Below, one piece after another: positions 2,433 to 63,952 of a stretch of DNA of 64,000 nt. Numbering within the stretch: the stretch's first letter is position 1; every line of letters begins with the position of its first letter. The notes under the pieces are model-generated. The model had not been told where the DNA came from, searched no databases, and saw only the letters and a list, made by a program, of their open reading frames with translations. Origin of the DNA: Halorussus ruber (GTDB lineage Archaea > Halobacteriota > Halobacteria > Halobacteriales > Haladaptataceae); the NCBI RefSeq assembly GCF_004765785.1, contig NZ_SBIT01000015.1:124001-188000 (forward strand), written 5' to 3'. The position numbers and the translations under genes were made by a program.

Positions 2433-2862
2433 GACGCAAAATCTCTGTTTCCTCCGACGGTGTTTTCGGCGGCTTGTGACTAGCGAAAGCTGGCTGACCA
2501 ACCGCCAGCGAACGCTCAACTGACTAACTGCCAGCAGACGCTCGACTGAGAAACCGCTGGGTGGGATGAAGGGGCCGCCCGGTCGCGTGCAGTTTAGTCG
2601 CTGTGTAGGCTCTATTCGCGGCGGGCGGTGTCTCGCCGAGCGAAGCGAGGCGATGGCTCGGAAGACGCGGTTTGTCTTCCGGTGCGGAGAGCCGCGAATA
2701 TCCTGCACAGCGACCGCGACCGGGCGGGGGCTTCAATAAAACATTACAACGAGGATTCTGTGGGCTACAGTCGTATTCGCACTGAAGAGACCGAACTAAA
2801 TTTCTTAGAAAATCAAAATCGTGTACCAAATACCGAAACTCCCGAAAACCCAGATTTTCACT
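2433..2862. other. Intergenic region carrying repeat family 1, copy 1
   Basis: This 430-base gap lies between the convergent DUF354 and GT2 genes. The first 130 bases contain a run of short related phrases (ACGCTCAACTGAC, ACGCTCGACTGAG) leading into the structured repeat at 2563-2740. The last ~100 bases are AT-rich. No credible protein-coding frame is present. Confidence 0.7.
2563..2740 (+). repeat. Structured dispersed repeat, family 1 copy 1
   Basis: Outer arms GATGAAGGGGCCGCCCGGTC and GACCGGGCGGGGGCTTCAAT pair except at a short GGGC/CCCC internal loop. Inside, GTCGCTGTGTAGG pairs with CCTGCACAGCGAC, then CTCTATTCGCGGC pairs with GCCGCGAATAT. The apical part holds a hairpin GGAAGAC/GTCTTCC. 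Related elements lie at 9305-9531, 52541-52662 and 35708-35842. The phrase GACGCTCGACTGAGAAACCG just before it (2538-2557) also recurs near the 9.5 kb and 52.5 kb copies. It is non-coding as far as can be seen; whether it is an RNA gene or a DNA-level mobile element is open. Confidence 0.8.
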
Positions 2863-9304: not shown

Positions 9305-9531
9305 CTTGAAGCCCCCGCCCGGTCACGGTCGCTGAGCGACATATCGGCGCTCTCCGCACCGGAAGACAAACCGCGTCTTCCGAGCCATCATCGTCCGAAA
9401 ATCGGAGATTTTCGTGATCACGAAAGGCTTCGCCTTTCGAACGACCTCACTTCGTTCGGTGAGACACCGCCTGCGCCGATAGGGGTCGCTCAGACGACTA
9501 AACTGCACGCGACCGGGCGGCCCCTTCATCC
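9305..9531 (-). repeat. Structured dispersed repeat, family 1 copy 2
   Basis: Read on the minus strand it begins GATGAAGGGGCCGCCCGGTC and ends GACCGGGCGGGGGCTTCAAG. The inner stem is GTCTGAGCGAC with GTCGCTCAG, then CCCTATCGGCGC with GCGCCGATAT. The apical region holds a chain of four small hairpins (CTCAC/GTGAG, CGAAAGGC/GCCTTTCG, CGAAAATC/GATTTTCG, GGAAGAC/GTCTTCC). It directly follows family 2 copy A in the same orientation; the two form one composite at 9305-9690. Confidence 0.82.
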
Positions 9532-9587
9532 ACCCGTGGCGGTTTCTCGGTCGAGCGTCTGTCGGTGGAAAGCGAAACCGAGCGCGT

Positions 9588-9690
9588 GCCTCACGCCTCC
9601 CCAACCTCCTGCGGTCCTCGGCCTTCGGCCTGCGGTCCTCGTCCCTCGCACGGATGGGTGCGAGATGAACTCGCGCCAGCGCGCGCCGAA
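9588..9690 (-). repeat. Structured dispersed repeat, family 2 copy A
   Basis: On the minus strand: CGCGCTGGCGCGAG, loop, CTCGCACC, then GTGCGAGGGACGAGG, a hairpin of GAGGACCGC phrases and the core AGGAGGTTGGGGAGGCGTGA. A linker (GCTTTCCACCGACAGACGCT) joins it to family 1 copy 2. Confidence 0.75.
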
Positions 9691-11005: not shown

Positions 11006-11491
11006 TCAAACTTCCAGAATTCGCTTCGTCCGGCGGTGGCGGTCCCGGAACATCGGCTCGAAGCCTATCCACCCCAGCGGCCCGAGGAGGCCCCGGACCA
11101 CCGGAAGCTCGTACTCCACGCGGTCCCGAACGAGGGTCGTCTCGCCGTCGATGGCGTAGAACGAGTGGGCGTGATTCCACGTCGGGAAGGGACCGTCCTC
11201 CATCACGTCCTCGAAGACCGCCGTGCCGTCGCCCTCCTCGCGGCGGGTGATGCGCGTGGTCCACCGCTGGCGCGGGCCGACGTCGAGCGGTCGCATCGAC
11301 ATCCGGACCGTGGTCCCGGCGTCCAGCACCGCGTCGTCGCCGCGCTTGATTCCGTCCGGTCCGCGGACCTCCTCGACGCGGAGGTGCATCCAGTCGGGGG
11401 TCAGCGCCTCCAGTCCGCGGATTCGGGAGTGGAAGTCCCAGACCGCTTCCAAGGGGGACTCGACGCGGACCTCTCGCTGGTAGGTGGGCAT
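11006..11491 (-). CDS. SRPBCC family protein
   Basis: 161 residues from the ATG at 11491 (MPTYQREVRVESPLEAVWDF), which matches the START-like fold opening; the open frame upstream lacks conserved sequence. FVSR-type ligand-cavity strands follow, and the C-terminus contains LGPLGWIGFEPMFRDRHRRT. Family members bind lipids or other hydrophobic molecules or are cell-division inhibitor-like; no specific function can be assigned. It runs toward the permease gene and is divergent from the aminotransferase gene. Confidence 0.75.
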   Translation of the reverse strand: MPTYQREVRVESPLEAVWDFHSRIRGLEALTPDWMHLRVEEVRGPDGIKRGDDAVLDAGTTVRMSMRPLDVGPRQRWTTRITRREEGDGTAVFEDVMEDGPFPTWNHAHSFYAIDGETTLVRDRVEYELPVVRGLLGPLGWIGFEPMFRDRHRRTKRILEV

Positions 11492-11598
11492 GGTCGATAC
11501 TTGTGCCAGCACCGACAAAACTTCCGTGGCGTCGTCGGGGGTCAGGGTCGTGGTCGGGGCGCGACCGCTCCGGCAAATACTGACTGTCACATCGAGAC

Positions 11599-11604
11599 TT
11601 TATA
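11599..11604 (+). promoter_or_regulatory. TATA box of the 11.6 kb aminotransferase gene
   Basis: TTTATA lies 26-31 bases before the ATG at 11630 and decides that start over the much longer open frame that reaches back across the SRPBCC gene. Confidence 0.65.
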
Positions 11605-11629
11605 CTCCCAGCGACGTTCACAGTTGTAC

Positions 11630-12835
11630 ATGGTTTCGGAGCGCGCGACCCGGACGACCCCGTTCGCCGCGATGGACGTTCTCGAACGGGCCAACCGCAT
11701 GGACGACGTTGTACACCTCGAAGTGGGCGAACCCGACTTCGAGACGCCGCAGGCAGTCACCGAGGCAGCAGTCGCAGCGCTCCGCGCGGGCGAGACGGGA
11801 TACACCTCCTCGAAGGGCAAGCCCGAACTCCGGCAGGCGATTTCGGACTACTACGACCGGCGCTACGGCGTGGACGTGCCGACCGAGCGCATCGTCGTGA
11901 CCTCGGGGTCGTCGCCCGCGCTCTTGCTGGCGTTCTCGACGCTGGTGGACCCCGGCGACGAGGTGGTGCTGACCGACCCCTACTACGCCTGCTACCCGAA
12001 CTTCGTCAGACAGGTCGGCGGGAGCATCTCGACGGTCCCGCTGGCGGCCGAGGAGGGGTTCCGACCGCGGGCCAGCGAGTTCGCTCGCACGGTGGATTCG
12101 GAGACCGAGGCCCTCCTGCTCAACTCGCCCGCGAACCCGACCGGCGCGGTGCTTTCGGGGTCGACGCTCTCGGAGCTGGTCGAACTCGCGGACGCCGCCG
12201 ACGCCACGGTCATCTCCGACGAGGTCTACCACGGCCTGACCTACGAGGGCGAGGACCACACCATCTTGGAGTACACCGACGACGCCTTCGTCGTAGACGG
12301 CTTCTCGAAGCGATTTTCGATGACGGGATGGCGACTCGGCTGGATGGTCGCGCCCGAGGAGTACGTCGGCCACGTCAACCGCATCGCCCAGAACACGCTC
12401 ATCTGCGCGCCCAACTTCGTCCAATCGGGCGGCGTGGCGGCCCTCAACGAGGTCGGCGACGATTTCCTCGGCGACGTGCGCGAGACCTACCGCGAGCGCC
12501 GGGACTACCTCGTGAGCGAAGTCGAAGACTGGGGCCTGAGTATGGGCTACACGCCGGGCGGGGCGTACTATCTCCTCATCGACGTGAGCGGCCTACCGGG
12601 AGATGTCCTCGAACAGCGTTCGAGGGGCGGCGGGACCTCGTCCCGCAAGGCGTTCGACGCCGCGGACTTCTTCCTCGAAGAGGCGGGCGTGGCGATGACC
12701 CCCGGACCGGACTTCGGGACCAACGCCGAGGAGTGCCTGCGGGTGTCCTACGCCAACAGCGCCGAGCGACTGGCCGAGGCCTCCGAGCGCATCCAGCGGG
12801 CGCTGGAGCGCGTCGAGATTCCGGCTGCGGACTGA
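11630..12835 (+). CDS. PLP-dependent class I/II aminotransferase
   Basis: 401 residues. Fold-type I signatures are LEVGEPDFETPQAV, the TGYTSSKGKPELRQAI segment, SGSSPALLL (phosphate loop), NSPANPTGAV, SDEVYHGLTY and the PLP lysine in DGFSKRFSMTGWRLGW (Lys227). The C-terminal RVSYANS binds the substrate carboxylate. It belongs with the aspartate/branched-chain aminotransferases; the exact amino acid is not clear. An Lrp-family regulator gene lies convergent 430 bases downstream. In Halobacterium the Lrp protein LrpA1 controls the neighbouring aminotransferase gene aspB3, so the pairing is suggestive. Confidence 0.9.
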   Translation: MVSERATRTTPFAAMDVLERANRMDDVVHLEVGEPDFETPQAVTEAAVAALRAGETGYTSSKGKPELRQAISDYYDRRYGVDVPTERIVVTSGSSPALLLAFSTLVDPGDEVVLTDPYYACYPNFVRQVGGSISTVPLAAEEGFRPRASEFARTVDSETEALLLNSPANPTGAVLSGSTLSELVELADAADATVISDEVYHGLTYEGEDHTILEYTDDAFVVDGFSKRFSMTGWRLGWMVAPEEYVGHVNRIAQNTLICAPNFVQSGGVAALNEVGDDFLGDVRETYRERRDYLVSEVEDWGLSMGYTPGGAYYLLIDVSGLPGDVLEQRSRGGGTSSRKAFDAADFFLEEAGVAMTPGPDFGTNAEECLRVSYANSAERLAEASERIQRALERVEIPAAD

Positions 12836-12917: not shown

Positions 12918-13102
12918 CGGCGCACGCTGGCGCGCTCTCTCGTGAGCGCGCCATCGGCGTGCGAGGGACGAGGACCGGAAGCCGGAGCGAAGCGGAGGCT
13001 GAGGACCGCAGGAGGTTGGGGAGGTTCGAGGCCCGCGGTCGCGGTGCGGGGCGGGGCGGTGCTGTGCGGGAGACTCCTCGGCTCAAGCCTGAAGCTAGCT
13101 TC
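12918..13102 (+). repeat. Structured dispersed repeat, family 2 copy B
   Basis: Opens CGCACGCTGGCGCGCTC, loop TCTCGT, GAGCGCGCC, then GTGCGAGGGACGAGG, an internal hairpin, the core GGAGGTTGGGGAGG, a G/C-rich stretch, and the tail CTCAAGCCTGAAGCTAGCTT. It fills most of the gap between the aminotransferase and the Lrp gene. A short T-tract at 12861-12865 precedes it. Confidence 0.78.
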
Positions 13103-13262: not shown

Positions 13263-13691
13263 TTACTTCAGCCGTTCCTGCAAAAACGACGGATGGGCCG
13301 CCGTCACGCCGTCGATTTCCAGAATCTTCTCGCTAATCACGTCGCCGACGGCGTCGCCGTCCGCCGCGCGGACCTCGGCCATCAGCATGTGGTCGCCCGA
13401 CGAGGAGTAGAGCGTCTCGACCTCGTCCAGCGCCTTCAAATCGCGGGTGGCCTCGACGTACTTCTCGCTGGCGACGTCCATCCCGACGAGCGCGATGGAC
13501 TTGCTCGACAGCTTCTTCGGGTCGATTTCGGCCGAATACCCCACGATGACCCCCTCGTCTTCGAGTTTCTCGATGTATTTGCGAACCGTGGGCTTCGAGA
13601 CGTTCGCCCGGTCGGCGATTTCGGCGTAGGACGCTTGGGCGTCCTCCTCGAGGACCGAGAGAATTCGATCTTCGGTGGATTGGGTACTCAT
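13263..13691 (-). CDS. Lrp/AsnC family transcriptional regulator
   Basis: 142 residues. An N-terminal winged helix-turn-helix (residues ~6-50, ASYAEIADRANVSKPTVRKY) is followed by a RAM ligand-binding domain (IALVGMDVASEKYVEATR, SSGDHMLMAEVRA). These proteins form octamers that sense amino acids and regulate transport and metabolism. An AT-rich box (13714-13724) lies ~25-30 bases before the ATG. The convergent aminotransferase gene is a plausible target by analogy with LrpA1-aspB3 of Halobacterium; glutamine-synthetase control is another known role in the group. Confidence 0.9.
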   Translation of the reverse strand: MSTQSTEDRILSVLEEDAQASYAEIADRANVSKPTVRKYIEKLEDEGVIVGYSAEIDPKKLSSKSIALVGMDVASEKYVEATRDLKALDEVETLYSSSGDHMLMAEVRAADGDAVGDVISEKILEIDGVTAAHPSFLQERLK

Positions 13692-24331: not shown

Positions 24332-24612
24332 AAGCCTAAGTCGGTGTGCAGTCCGACGAAGCTAGCGTCGGGCTTGGGCCGAGGAGTCACCGCGACCGCA
24401 CCGCGACCGCATCGCAACCGCATCGCAACCGCATCGCAACCGCATCGCAACCGCATCGCAACCGCATCGCAACCGCATCGCAACCGCATCGCAACCGCAC
24501 TGCTATCGCGGACCTCACGCCTCCCCAACCTCCTCACTCCCGCGCTTTGCGCGGTCGTTCGTCCCTCGCGCGGATGGGCGCGCTCACGGGAGAGCGCGCC
24601 CGGCACGCGCCA
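24332..24612 (-). repeat. Structured dispersed repeat, family 2 copy C, with tandem expansion
   Basis: On the minus strand: GGCGCGTGCCGGGCGCGCTC, loop, GAGCGCGCCC, GCGCGAGGGACGAACGACCG, GAGTGAGGAGGTTGGGGAGG, then the expanded G/C-rich segment and a tail with CTCCTCGGCCCAAGCC and GCTAGC. It occupies most of the 455-base gap between moaA and the 24.7 kb gene. The rest of the gap (24225-24330) is AT-rich. Confidence 0.78.
24388..24508. repeat. 11-bp tandem repeat array
   Basis: Ten contiguous 11-base units: two CACCGCGACCG, then eight identical CATCGCAACCG, then one degenerate unit (CACTGCTATCG). It sits within family 2 copy C at the place where other copies carry one or a few GCGGTCGCGGTGC-like phrases, so it appears to be a local expansion of that phrase. 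There are no spacers, so it is not a CRISPR array. Confidence 0.9.
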
Positions 24613-52386: not shown

Positions 52387-52505
52387 GGCGCGCGCTGGCG
52401 CGACCCCGTGTCGCGCCCTCATTCGCGCGAGGGACGAACGACCGCGCTCTGCGCGGGAGTGAGGAGGTTGGGGAGGCGTGAGGCACTCGCTCGGCGAGGC
52501 TTTCC
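52387..52505 (+). repeat. Structured dispersed repeat, family 2 copy D
   Basis: GGCGCGCGCTGGCGCGAC, loop CCCGT, GTCGCGCC, then CGCGCGAGGGACGAACGACC, a hairpin CGCGC/GCGCG, and the core GAGTGAGGAGGTTGGGGAGG. It leads straight into family 1 copy 3 through GCTTTCCATCGGCGAACGCC. Confidence 0.8.
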
Positions 52506-52540
52506 ATCGGCGAACGCCCGACCGGGAAACCGACAGGGAG

Positions 52541-52662
52541 GGATGAAGGGACCGCCCGGTCGCGTTCATTGTAGTCGCTCCTCGACTCTTATCCGCGACG
52601 GGCGGTGCCGAGAGGAGCGGATATGTCGAGGAGCGACCGCGAGCGGGCGGGGGCTTCAAGAG
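52541..52662 (+). repeat. Structured dispersed repeat, family 1 copy 3
   Basis: Outer arms GGATGAAGGGACCGCCCGGT and AGCGGGCGGGGGCTTCAAG. The inner stem GTCGCTCCTCGAC pairs perfectly with GTCGAGGAGCGAC, then CTTATCCGC with GCGGATAT. It is the shortest copy, with a minimal apical loop. With family 2 copy D it forms a composite (52387-52662) between the phosphorylase and deaminase genes. Confidence 0.84.
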
Positions 52663-54065: not shown

Positions 54066-54364
54066 CCGAGATATACGTGTAGTAGTCCTTAGGAAATAGA
54101 AATAATCATTTCCCGATTGTATTTGTTTCTCTATCGTCGTCGGCCGCTACCGCAAGGGTTCAAATACGAGGCCGGGACGAATCCCGGCCGGACGTTTCGA
54201 GCGGTTCCCGGCGAGGACAGTACGCGCGTACTGCGGAACCGCCAGTCCGACTACCCCGAGAGGGCTGAGCCATACGCGTCGAGTTGCACCGCTGTCGGCT
54301 CGTTCCGGGCTGTCGGTTCCGGGCACCGACGCGGGACAGACTGGACCGGGACACGGGGCTAGCG

Positions 54365-54514
54365 ACTGCTGACTCCGAGGAGGACCGCCACCGCGACCGC
54401 CCCGCACAGCACCGCTACCGTGACCTCACGCCTCCCCAGCCTCGCGGCCACGCAAGGTGGCCGCGTCCCTCGCGCGGTGTTGGTGCGACACGAGAGTCGC
54501 ACCAGCGCGCGCCG
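54365..54514 (-). repeat. Structured dispersed repeat, family 2 copy E
   Basis: On the minus strand: GGCGCGCGCTGGTGCGAC, loop TCTCGT, GTCGCACC, CGCGCGAGGGACGCGGCCAC, a hairpin GCGGCCAC/GTGGCCGC, the core GAGGCTGGGGAGGCGTGAGG, a G/C-rich run and a tail ending CTCCTCGGAGTC...GCTAGC. It lies in the 575-base gap between the 53.3 kb gene and the ABC permease; the remaining gap shows no gene. Confidence 0.76.
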
Positions 54515-63524: not shown

Positions 63525-63750
63525 CGGCGCGCGCTGGCGCGACCCCGTGTCGCGCCACCGGCGTGCGAGGTCTGCGAGAGCGTAGCGACCGCAGGCTCGG
63601 CAGAGCTTGTCTCTGCCGGTGGATGACTGAACGACCGAACGCGGTGAGGGAGTGAGGGAAGAGGCTGGGGAGGTGTGAGGCTCGCGGTAGCTGTTGCGGT
63701 GCTGTGCGGTGCGGTAAACGCCTCGACTCAAGCCTGAAGCTAGCTTCTCT
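63525..63750 (+). repeat. Structured dispersed repeat, family 2 copy F
   Basis: GGCGCGCGCTGGCGCGAC, CCCGT, GTCGCGCC, GGCGTGCGAGGTCTGCGAGA, hairpins GACCGCAGG and GGCAGAGC/GTCTCTGCC, the core GAGGCTGGGGAGGTGTGAGG, then GCGGTAGCTGTTGCGGTGCT and the tail CTCAAGCCTGAAGCTAGCTT. The longest copy without tandem expansion. Confidence 0.8.
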
Positions 63751-63952
63751 GTCCCTTCGAATCAGTATCGTCCAAATCTTCCTTCTCGAAGGAAGCATCG
63801 TCCAACTCCTCTTTCTCGAAGGAAGCATCGTCCAACTCCTCTTTCTCGAAGGAAGCATCGTCCAACTCCTCTTTCTCGAAGGAAGCATCGTCCAACTCCT
63901 CTTTCTCGAAGAACAGTCGCCGAAGACGAATCACGTCACTCCCGTCGCGCAA
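63740..63952 (-). CDS. ORF with acidic 10-residue repeats (uncertain gene, possibly a frame-shifted tail)
   Basis: The minus-strand frame encodes RDGSDVIRLRRLF followed by four FEKEELDDAS-type repeats and ends DTDSKGQRS inside family 2 copy F. Its only local start is TTG at 63952, overlapping another frame that enters the window. It could be a short acidic protein, or the cytosolic tail of the upstream membrane protein separated by a one-base frame difference (see the entry at 63936). It could also be a non-coding repeat that stays open by chance. Confidence 0.35.
   Translation of the reverse strand: MRDGSDVIRLRRLFFEKEELDDASFEKEELDDASFEKEELDDASFEKEELDDASFEKEDLDDTDSKGQRS
63767..63916. repeat. 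30-bp tandem repeat, five units
   Basis: Units start ATCGTCCAA and end TCGAAGGAAGC; units 2-4 (63797-63886) are identical, unit 1 has ATCTTCC for CTCCTCT and unit 5 ends in GAAGAACAG. Each unit holds the palindrome TTCTCGAA-type sequence. On the minus strand each unit encodes ten residues (FEKEELDDAS), keeping frame throughout. No spacers, so it is not a CRISPR array. Confidence 0.9.

Follow-up and report, generated by a model that had tools for sequence, protein, structure and literature searches.

The window analysed here, a 64,000-nucleotide stretch of Halorussus ruber DNA, contains six copies of a GC-rich, hairpin-forming repeat, and the locus raises the question of whether these are ordinary local regulatory regions or members of a mobile family. 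We addressed this through the copies themselves, the pairing of their stems, their presence or absence in relatives, and comparison with known elements.

Copies in the window and in the genome

The six copies reported by a first-pass annotation lie where it placed them, and a covariance model based on 39 cores recovers 6 of 6, the copy at 63525 being mis-anchored in that search by an inserted hairpin. The copies and associated features are:

Copy 1: 9307..9690, minus strand; core (P1/P2, P3, linker) at 9589-9687, then tail B / P4 long hairpin
Copy 1, P4 arms: 9307-9327 and 9508-9528, minus strand; extra hairpins inserted near 9344-9444
Copy 2 (the one described by the first-pass annotation): 12919..13102, plus strand; core 12919-13031, minisatellite tail, 3' end AGCTAGCTTC at 13093-13102
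Copy 3: 24355..24611, minus strand; core 24513-24611, 3' end near 24355
Copy 4: 52387..52658, plus strand; core 52387-52483, then tail B / P4 with arms 52544-52567 and 52635-52658
Copy 5: 54358..54513, minus strand; core 54424-54513, minisatellite tail, short 3' end (end approximate)
Copy 6: 63526..63747, plus strand; core split by a 51-nt two-hairpin insert, 3' end AGCTAGCTTC at 63738-63747
Two-hairpin insert in copy 6: 63571..63621, plus strand; ends TC...GGTG
P4 long hairpin with no detectable upstream core: 2567..2735, plus strand

Copy 2 is flanked by convergent predicted genes at 11036-12835 (plus strand) and 13263-13691 (minus strand). The minisatellite of copy 3 occupies 24391-24499 and consists of 9.9 units of 11 bp at 97% match. 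The extents first assigned to the copies at 9588 and 52387 were too short, as both run into P4, to ~9307 and ~52658. The strings described as shared are not identical across all six: GCGAGGGACG is broken in copy 6 by the insert at 63571-63621, which shows no visible target duplication against an uninterrupted core, and the linker sequence is GAGGTTGGGGAGGTTCGAGG in copy 2, GAGGCTGGGGAGGCGTGAGG in copy 5 and GAGGCTGGGGAGGTGTGAGG in copy 6.

The genome-wide copy count that had been suggested as a check gave 89 places for the linker motif GGAGGTTGGGGAGGYGTGAGG at up to 3 mismatches, 44 on one strand and 45 on the other, compared with 0 for the reversed pattern used as control. A second linker type, GTCGGTTGGGGAGGACGTGG, marks 58 further places, none of them within 60 bases of the first 89 (reversed control 0; one or two of the weakest matches may be chance). 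The 4.3-Mb genome contains at least 147 non-overlapping motif matches, or about one copy per 29 kb. The six window copies are members of a large, non-coding, dispersed repeat family. Its intergenic placement in both orientations, first noticed in the window, extends to the whole genome: 0 of the 89 copies lie inside genes predicted with a home-made codon-usage caller, and 0 of 100 evaluable copies do so in other genera.

All 89 first-type copies were extracted for anatomy. From 5' to 3' the element comprises P1 with P2 inside it, a spacer, P3, a linker, a G-rich minisatellite and either a short 3' end or P4. P1 follows the pattern GGCGCG[CT]GC ... GCG.GCGAGG, the spacer between P1/P2 and P3 reads GGGA(C/T)GA or GGGAGTCG, and P3 occurs as a few discrete forms. 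The linker is purine-rich (G/A-rich), and the unpaired linkers between stems are highly conserved. The core measures ~100 nt and the full element 150-400 nt; 55 of the 89 copies finish in the short end with AGCTAGCTTC (tail A) and, by pattern, about 19 in the long hairpin P4 (tail B).

The 5' end is sharp, passing from unrelated flanks ending in C straight into GGCGCG. A start could be assigned in 85 of the 89 copies and not in the remaining 4, and some other starts are wrong or fall at an upstream duplicate (for example L022, L087 and L088). On the 5' side of the H. ruber copies, the TC before GGCGCG is the only part of the flank conserved above background, and conservation past AGCTAGCTTC fades within ~10 bases. 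Terminal inverted repeats, which a MITE would have, were not found: the 5' GGCGCG... and the 3' AGCTAGCTTC are unlike each other. Downstream of the same core, Halorubrum copies carry TGCGG repeats, then P4 (CAAAGGGGCAGTCGCG ... CGCGACTGGGGCTTTG) and GGAGGTGTTCGCC. Because copies run into P4 and the Halorubrum order is core, repeats, P4, the P4 repeats and what had been annotated as a separate "Family 2" are parts of one composite.

By a loose pattern, 25 of the 89 copies have a two-hairpin module of ~50 nt no more than 200 nt upstream of their linker. The modules at 9344-9444 and 63571-63621 end in GGTG, are built on GCGNAGC-type mini-hairpins and are nested in different stems. Such modules look like a separate mobile repeat.

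Many copies in Halorubrum and related genomes (L102-L217) have a TTATAAA-type box ~11-17 nt before the 5' end, at a near-fixed distance, often with a second AT-rich box ~33 nt further out; the 5' flank was collected for 87 of 125 other-genus copies and its profile drawn from 69. The first box may be a promoter, a target preference or part of the element, and its fixed distance counts against random insertion. Archaeal TATA boxes stand ~27 nt from the transcription start. We did not accept the promoter reading, because the box is so close that a start at this spacing would remove the 5' strand of P1.

Stem pairing and hairpin exchange

Pairing statistics, like the covariance model, were taken from 39 of 157 extracted cores representing several genera. 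Paired changes in the first hairpin had been proposed from the window and are evident here: 94.3% of P1/P2 cells pair, and 61 cells are changed on both sides, compared with 22.5 ± 3.3 in shuffled data (0 of 500 shuffles as high). The paired changes are real, and the printed cores, compared by eye, vary largely by swaps of whole hairpins, beyond stepwise compensation.

The non-Watson-Crick pairs of P1 are strongly asymmetric. In counts that tally sequences and not evolutionary events, G.T exceeds A.C by 46 to 3 in 84 H. ruber copies and by 48 to 8 in 83 copies from other genomes. This asymmetry would follow from folding of the plus strand itself, either as RNA or as single-stranded DNA. The P2 and P3 stems are near-perfect, with 6 mismatches in 795 pairs of H. 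ruber cores as detected by a finder that penalises mismatches, and in these copies they show no excess of G.T over A.C (9:7). In RNA folding of five of the six window cores, none was clearly stabler than shuffled sequence (z from +0.24 to -1.83); one Halorubrum core was clearly so (z = -5.59).

We then compared two intergenic positions in Halorubrum, using the best 30 matches to an element-containing query among 52 genomes, a choice that biases occupancy upward. Of 23 evaluable loci at site A, 18 have the core, always in the same orientation, one (L311) has a remnant, which an automated count of 19 cores had included, and four have nothing, their spacers measuring 45-82 nt. At site B it is present in 15 of 27 evaluable loci, and several others have a different gene or a short spacer. 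Mean core identity at the same position is 0.758 for site A and 0.681 for site B, the latter lowered by one shortened core (L294, 34 nt, cut by the start pattern), compared with 0.741 for unrelated copies. Since the cores are about as alike as unrelated copies despite flanking genes that are ~91-95% identical, hairpins have been swapped at positions that were kept. Judged by these identities, hairpin sequence at the Halorubrum sites turns over faster than position. Cassette swapping at fixed positions offers a natural experiment on palindrome evolution. It also calls for caution, as stem changes that look "compensatory" in repeats of this kind do not have to reflect stepwise RNA covariation. 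Species differ in the content of the site B spacer (L294-L323), which is either the element or a short stretch, unrelated to it, that looks protein-coding.

Occupancy, spread and candidate enzymes

Occupancy of the window positions differs among Halorussus relatives. At the 12918 spacer the core is present in 7 of 16 evaluable relatives: in five it has solely the orientation seen in H. ruber, in G005 it lies solely on the other strand, and in G008 it occurs on both, tail to tail; two more (G004 and G014) retain 5' remnants identified by reading, and seven have nothing. A core is present in 2 of 13 relatives in the 24332 spacer and in 1 of 14 in the 52387 spacer, where the intergenic region is longer and the core sits at its distal end. 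For the 54365 spacer, 2 of 7 relatives have a copy; their variant linkers were recognised by eye and are missed by the automated pattern. Divergence of the spacers, even in the nearest relatives compared (66-92% identity in the flanking genes), made target-site duplications unreadable.

These observations divide the earlier claim of a mobile family as opposed to local regulatory regions. Dispersal is upheld by copy number, sharp ends, patchy occupancy and copies on opposite strands. Active transposition is not, as the two Halorubrum positions keep the element in one orientation in most evaluable species, which resembles a functional locus and counts against the mobile reading.

The family is abundant and order-wide, extending well beyond H. 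ruber. The GGAGGTTGGGGAGGYGTGAGG motif at up to 2 mismatches occurs in 15 of 18 Halorussus genomes, in 2 to 85 copies, and is missing from 3 of 18. A covariance model of the core (R1) finds matches in 75 of 145 genomes of the class and in 29 of 58 genera, with per-genome counts of at least 28 at the top. Among the matches listed in a pattern scan of named genomes, most are from Halorubrum, with others in Halorussus, Halosimplex, Haloparvum and Halobellus. A plasmid collection yielded matches on plasmids of Halorussus (four), Halobaculum (one) and Halorubrum (one); the best of these matches overlap no annotated feature, hence no autonomous partner was seen there. A phage collection gave no match. 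Rfam searches (gathering threshold and E ≤ 1) assigned no family, returning only tRNAs for the window and only chance-level miRNA matches for five loci.

We also looked for an enzyme that could mobilise the element. Of the 18 Halorussus genomes, 8 lack the Y1 transposase (PF01797), among them the ones with 85 and 61 copies, and Y1 genes show no rank correlation with copy number in this genus (rho = 0.13, p = 0.60). The transposase is likewise absent from 11 of 52 Halorubrum genomes, four of which (G023, G026, G028, G032) have at least 28 core matches. In H. ruber, 4 of the 23 TnpB and 7 Y1 loci hold any trace of the family, as copy density predicts, and neither TnpB (3 of 20 near copies, 2.1 expected) nor Y1 (1 of 6, 0.7 expected) is enriched near copies. 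Given the absences and the lack of correlation, proximity and shared ends, we rejected Y1 transposase and TnpB as the general mobiliser. PMC6006769 reports that archaea have only the IS200 subclass of Y1 enzymes and not TnpA-REP.

Explanations for the family

Like REP/BIME elements, the family has many intergenic copies with palindromic stem-loops. Those elements are further described as having variable yet paired stems with GT pairs, inverted dimers and tandem reiteration together with flanking DNA (PMC3733652; PMC2817692), all of which have counterparts here. The inverted pairs are represented by six tail-to-tail pairs among the 61 copies of Halorussus G005, of which two represent a single segment that was duplicated, and by the one in G008. 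The two differ in size, this family having two to four hairpins in its 150-400 nt, whereas a REP is a single hairpin of 20-40 bp. A REP-type GTAG or CGTC foot was not found in the aligned consensus, whose first bases are GGCGCG. REP/BIME elements also have the RAYT (TnpA-REP) Y1 enzyme, whereas this family has no Y1 link.

With a probability of roughly 0.6, we favour the reading that this is a REP/BIME-like, non-autonomous intergenic DNA element of haloarchaea, with one folding strand. Such an element would spread and be lost over evolutionary time, tolerated between genes. Its plus strand would fold into P1/P2 and P3, in some copies also into P4, with the conserved G/A-rich linkers connecting the hairpins; some copies are arranged as inverted tail-to-tail pairs and some bear smaller hairpin inserts. 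An enzyme may recognise a single-stranded intermediate, more probably DNA than RNA, and hairpins would be swapped by recombination between copies (gene conversion) or by repeated insertion. Counting against this reading, no insertion with a readable target site was caught among the compared spacers, and the comparisons with Y1 and TnpB pointed to no mobilising gene.

The main rival, which we consider unlikely, is a multi-copy structured non-coding RNA or a 3'-UTR/terminator element, its copies selected and spread by recombination. The strand-specific tolerance of G.T in P1, the highly conserved unpaired linkers and the conserved position and orientation at the two Halorubrum sites would all suit it. 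So would gene context in other genera, where spacers with a core are convergent in 41 of 100 cases compared with 21 of 167 without (p = 2e-7), in a test biased by the element itself lengthening spacers past the 150-nt cut, and the weak lean of pooled tandem contexts to the gene direction (52:31, p = 0.03). In H. ruber, however, contexts are spread (++ 25, -+ 24, +- 24, -- 14, and two copies at contig edges) and the convergent excess is not significant. The absence of G.T bias from P2 and P3 in H. ruber copies and of any Rfam match also argues against an RNA, as do the position of the TATA-like box and the unremarkable folding energies of the five window cores, though the single Halorubrum core is stabler.

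Another possibility is a PATE-type element, that is, a deletion derivative of an IS200/IS605 transposon moved by its Y1 transposase. According to the excerpts of PMC3119063, the PATEs of Haloquadratum walsbyi are heterogeneous, with near-terminal palindromes and neither terminal inverted repeats nor target duplication. The present family is likewise haloarchaeal and non-coding, with heterogeneous copies, no terminal inverted repeats and palindromes near its ends. The same excerpts describe PATE palindromes as targets of small mobile repeats, which recalls the inserts seen here: SMR-A of Haloquadratum also enters palindromes with no visible target duplication, but is ~110 bp long and has terminal inverted repeats (PMC3119063), whereas the inserts here, which sit inside P1, P2 or the tail, are ~50 nt. 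IS200/IS605 elements, for their part, are described in the available excerpts as having subterminal hairpins, transposing as single strands and making no target duplication (PMC6006769, PMC3119063); one folding strand with hairpins at the ends is common to both, and this family has no transposase gene, shared ends or visible target tetranucleotide in the 5' flank. The palindromes of PATEs are similar to ones in the resident IS605 transposons, whereas the palindromes of this family do not resemble those of the 23 TnpB and 7 Y1 loci, and its conserved linkers, minisatellite and P4 have no counterpart in the consulted part of the PATE description (PMC3119063). With ends not common to resident elements and no correlation with Y1 genes, a PATE-type origin is improbable. 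We found no description of this family in the literature searched, and it is not filed as PATE or REP/RAYT, though it works like them.

The arms of a hairpin can be corrected against each other when the replication fork switches template. The least probable explanation, one we give hardly any weight, is that palindromes kept perfect in this way by mutation alone were copied by recombination, with neither transposition nor function, which would suit the near-perfect P2 and P3 stems, the swapped hairpin cassettes and the short tandem duplications next to the element (on the 3' side 6 of 55 versus 0 of 41 control spacers, p = 0.04; on the 5' side 3 of 84, not significant; similar arrays in L306 and L347-L352) but leaves the invariant linkers, the sharp ends, the opposite-strand copies at an orthologous spacer and the P1 G.T bias unexplained.

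Beyond the REP/BIME-like reading, we tentatively raise a wider one, itself doubtful: order-wide folded elements that would spread through a single-stranded, possibly RNA, intermediate by an unknown enzyme, swapping hairpin cassettes within a fixed scaffold, much as REPINs or SINEs would if they occurred in archaea and lacked a Y1 transposase. REP-type populations have been described for bacteria and tied to RAYT, and here a comparably dense population, spread over many haloarchaeal genera, occurs with no such enzyme in several of the genomes that have the most copies. For Halorubrum and Halorussus, the family has consequences for how genomes are annotated and spacers analysed.

Several smaller features accompany the copies. 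In G005, the same inverted pair with its flanks stands on two contigs (L349 on C4, L350 on C7), reflecting a duplicated segment or an assembly effect. The 11-bp minisatellite within copy 3 is a possible fast-changing strain marker. A tandem array at 63767-63911 (period 30, 4.8 units) directly adjoins the 3' end of copy 6, and short arrays spanning the element end and its flank also lie beside other copies (L306, with ~7 units, L349 and L352).
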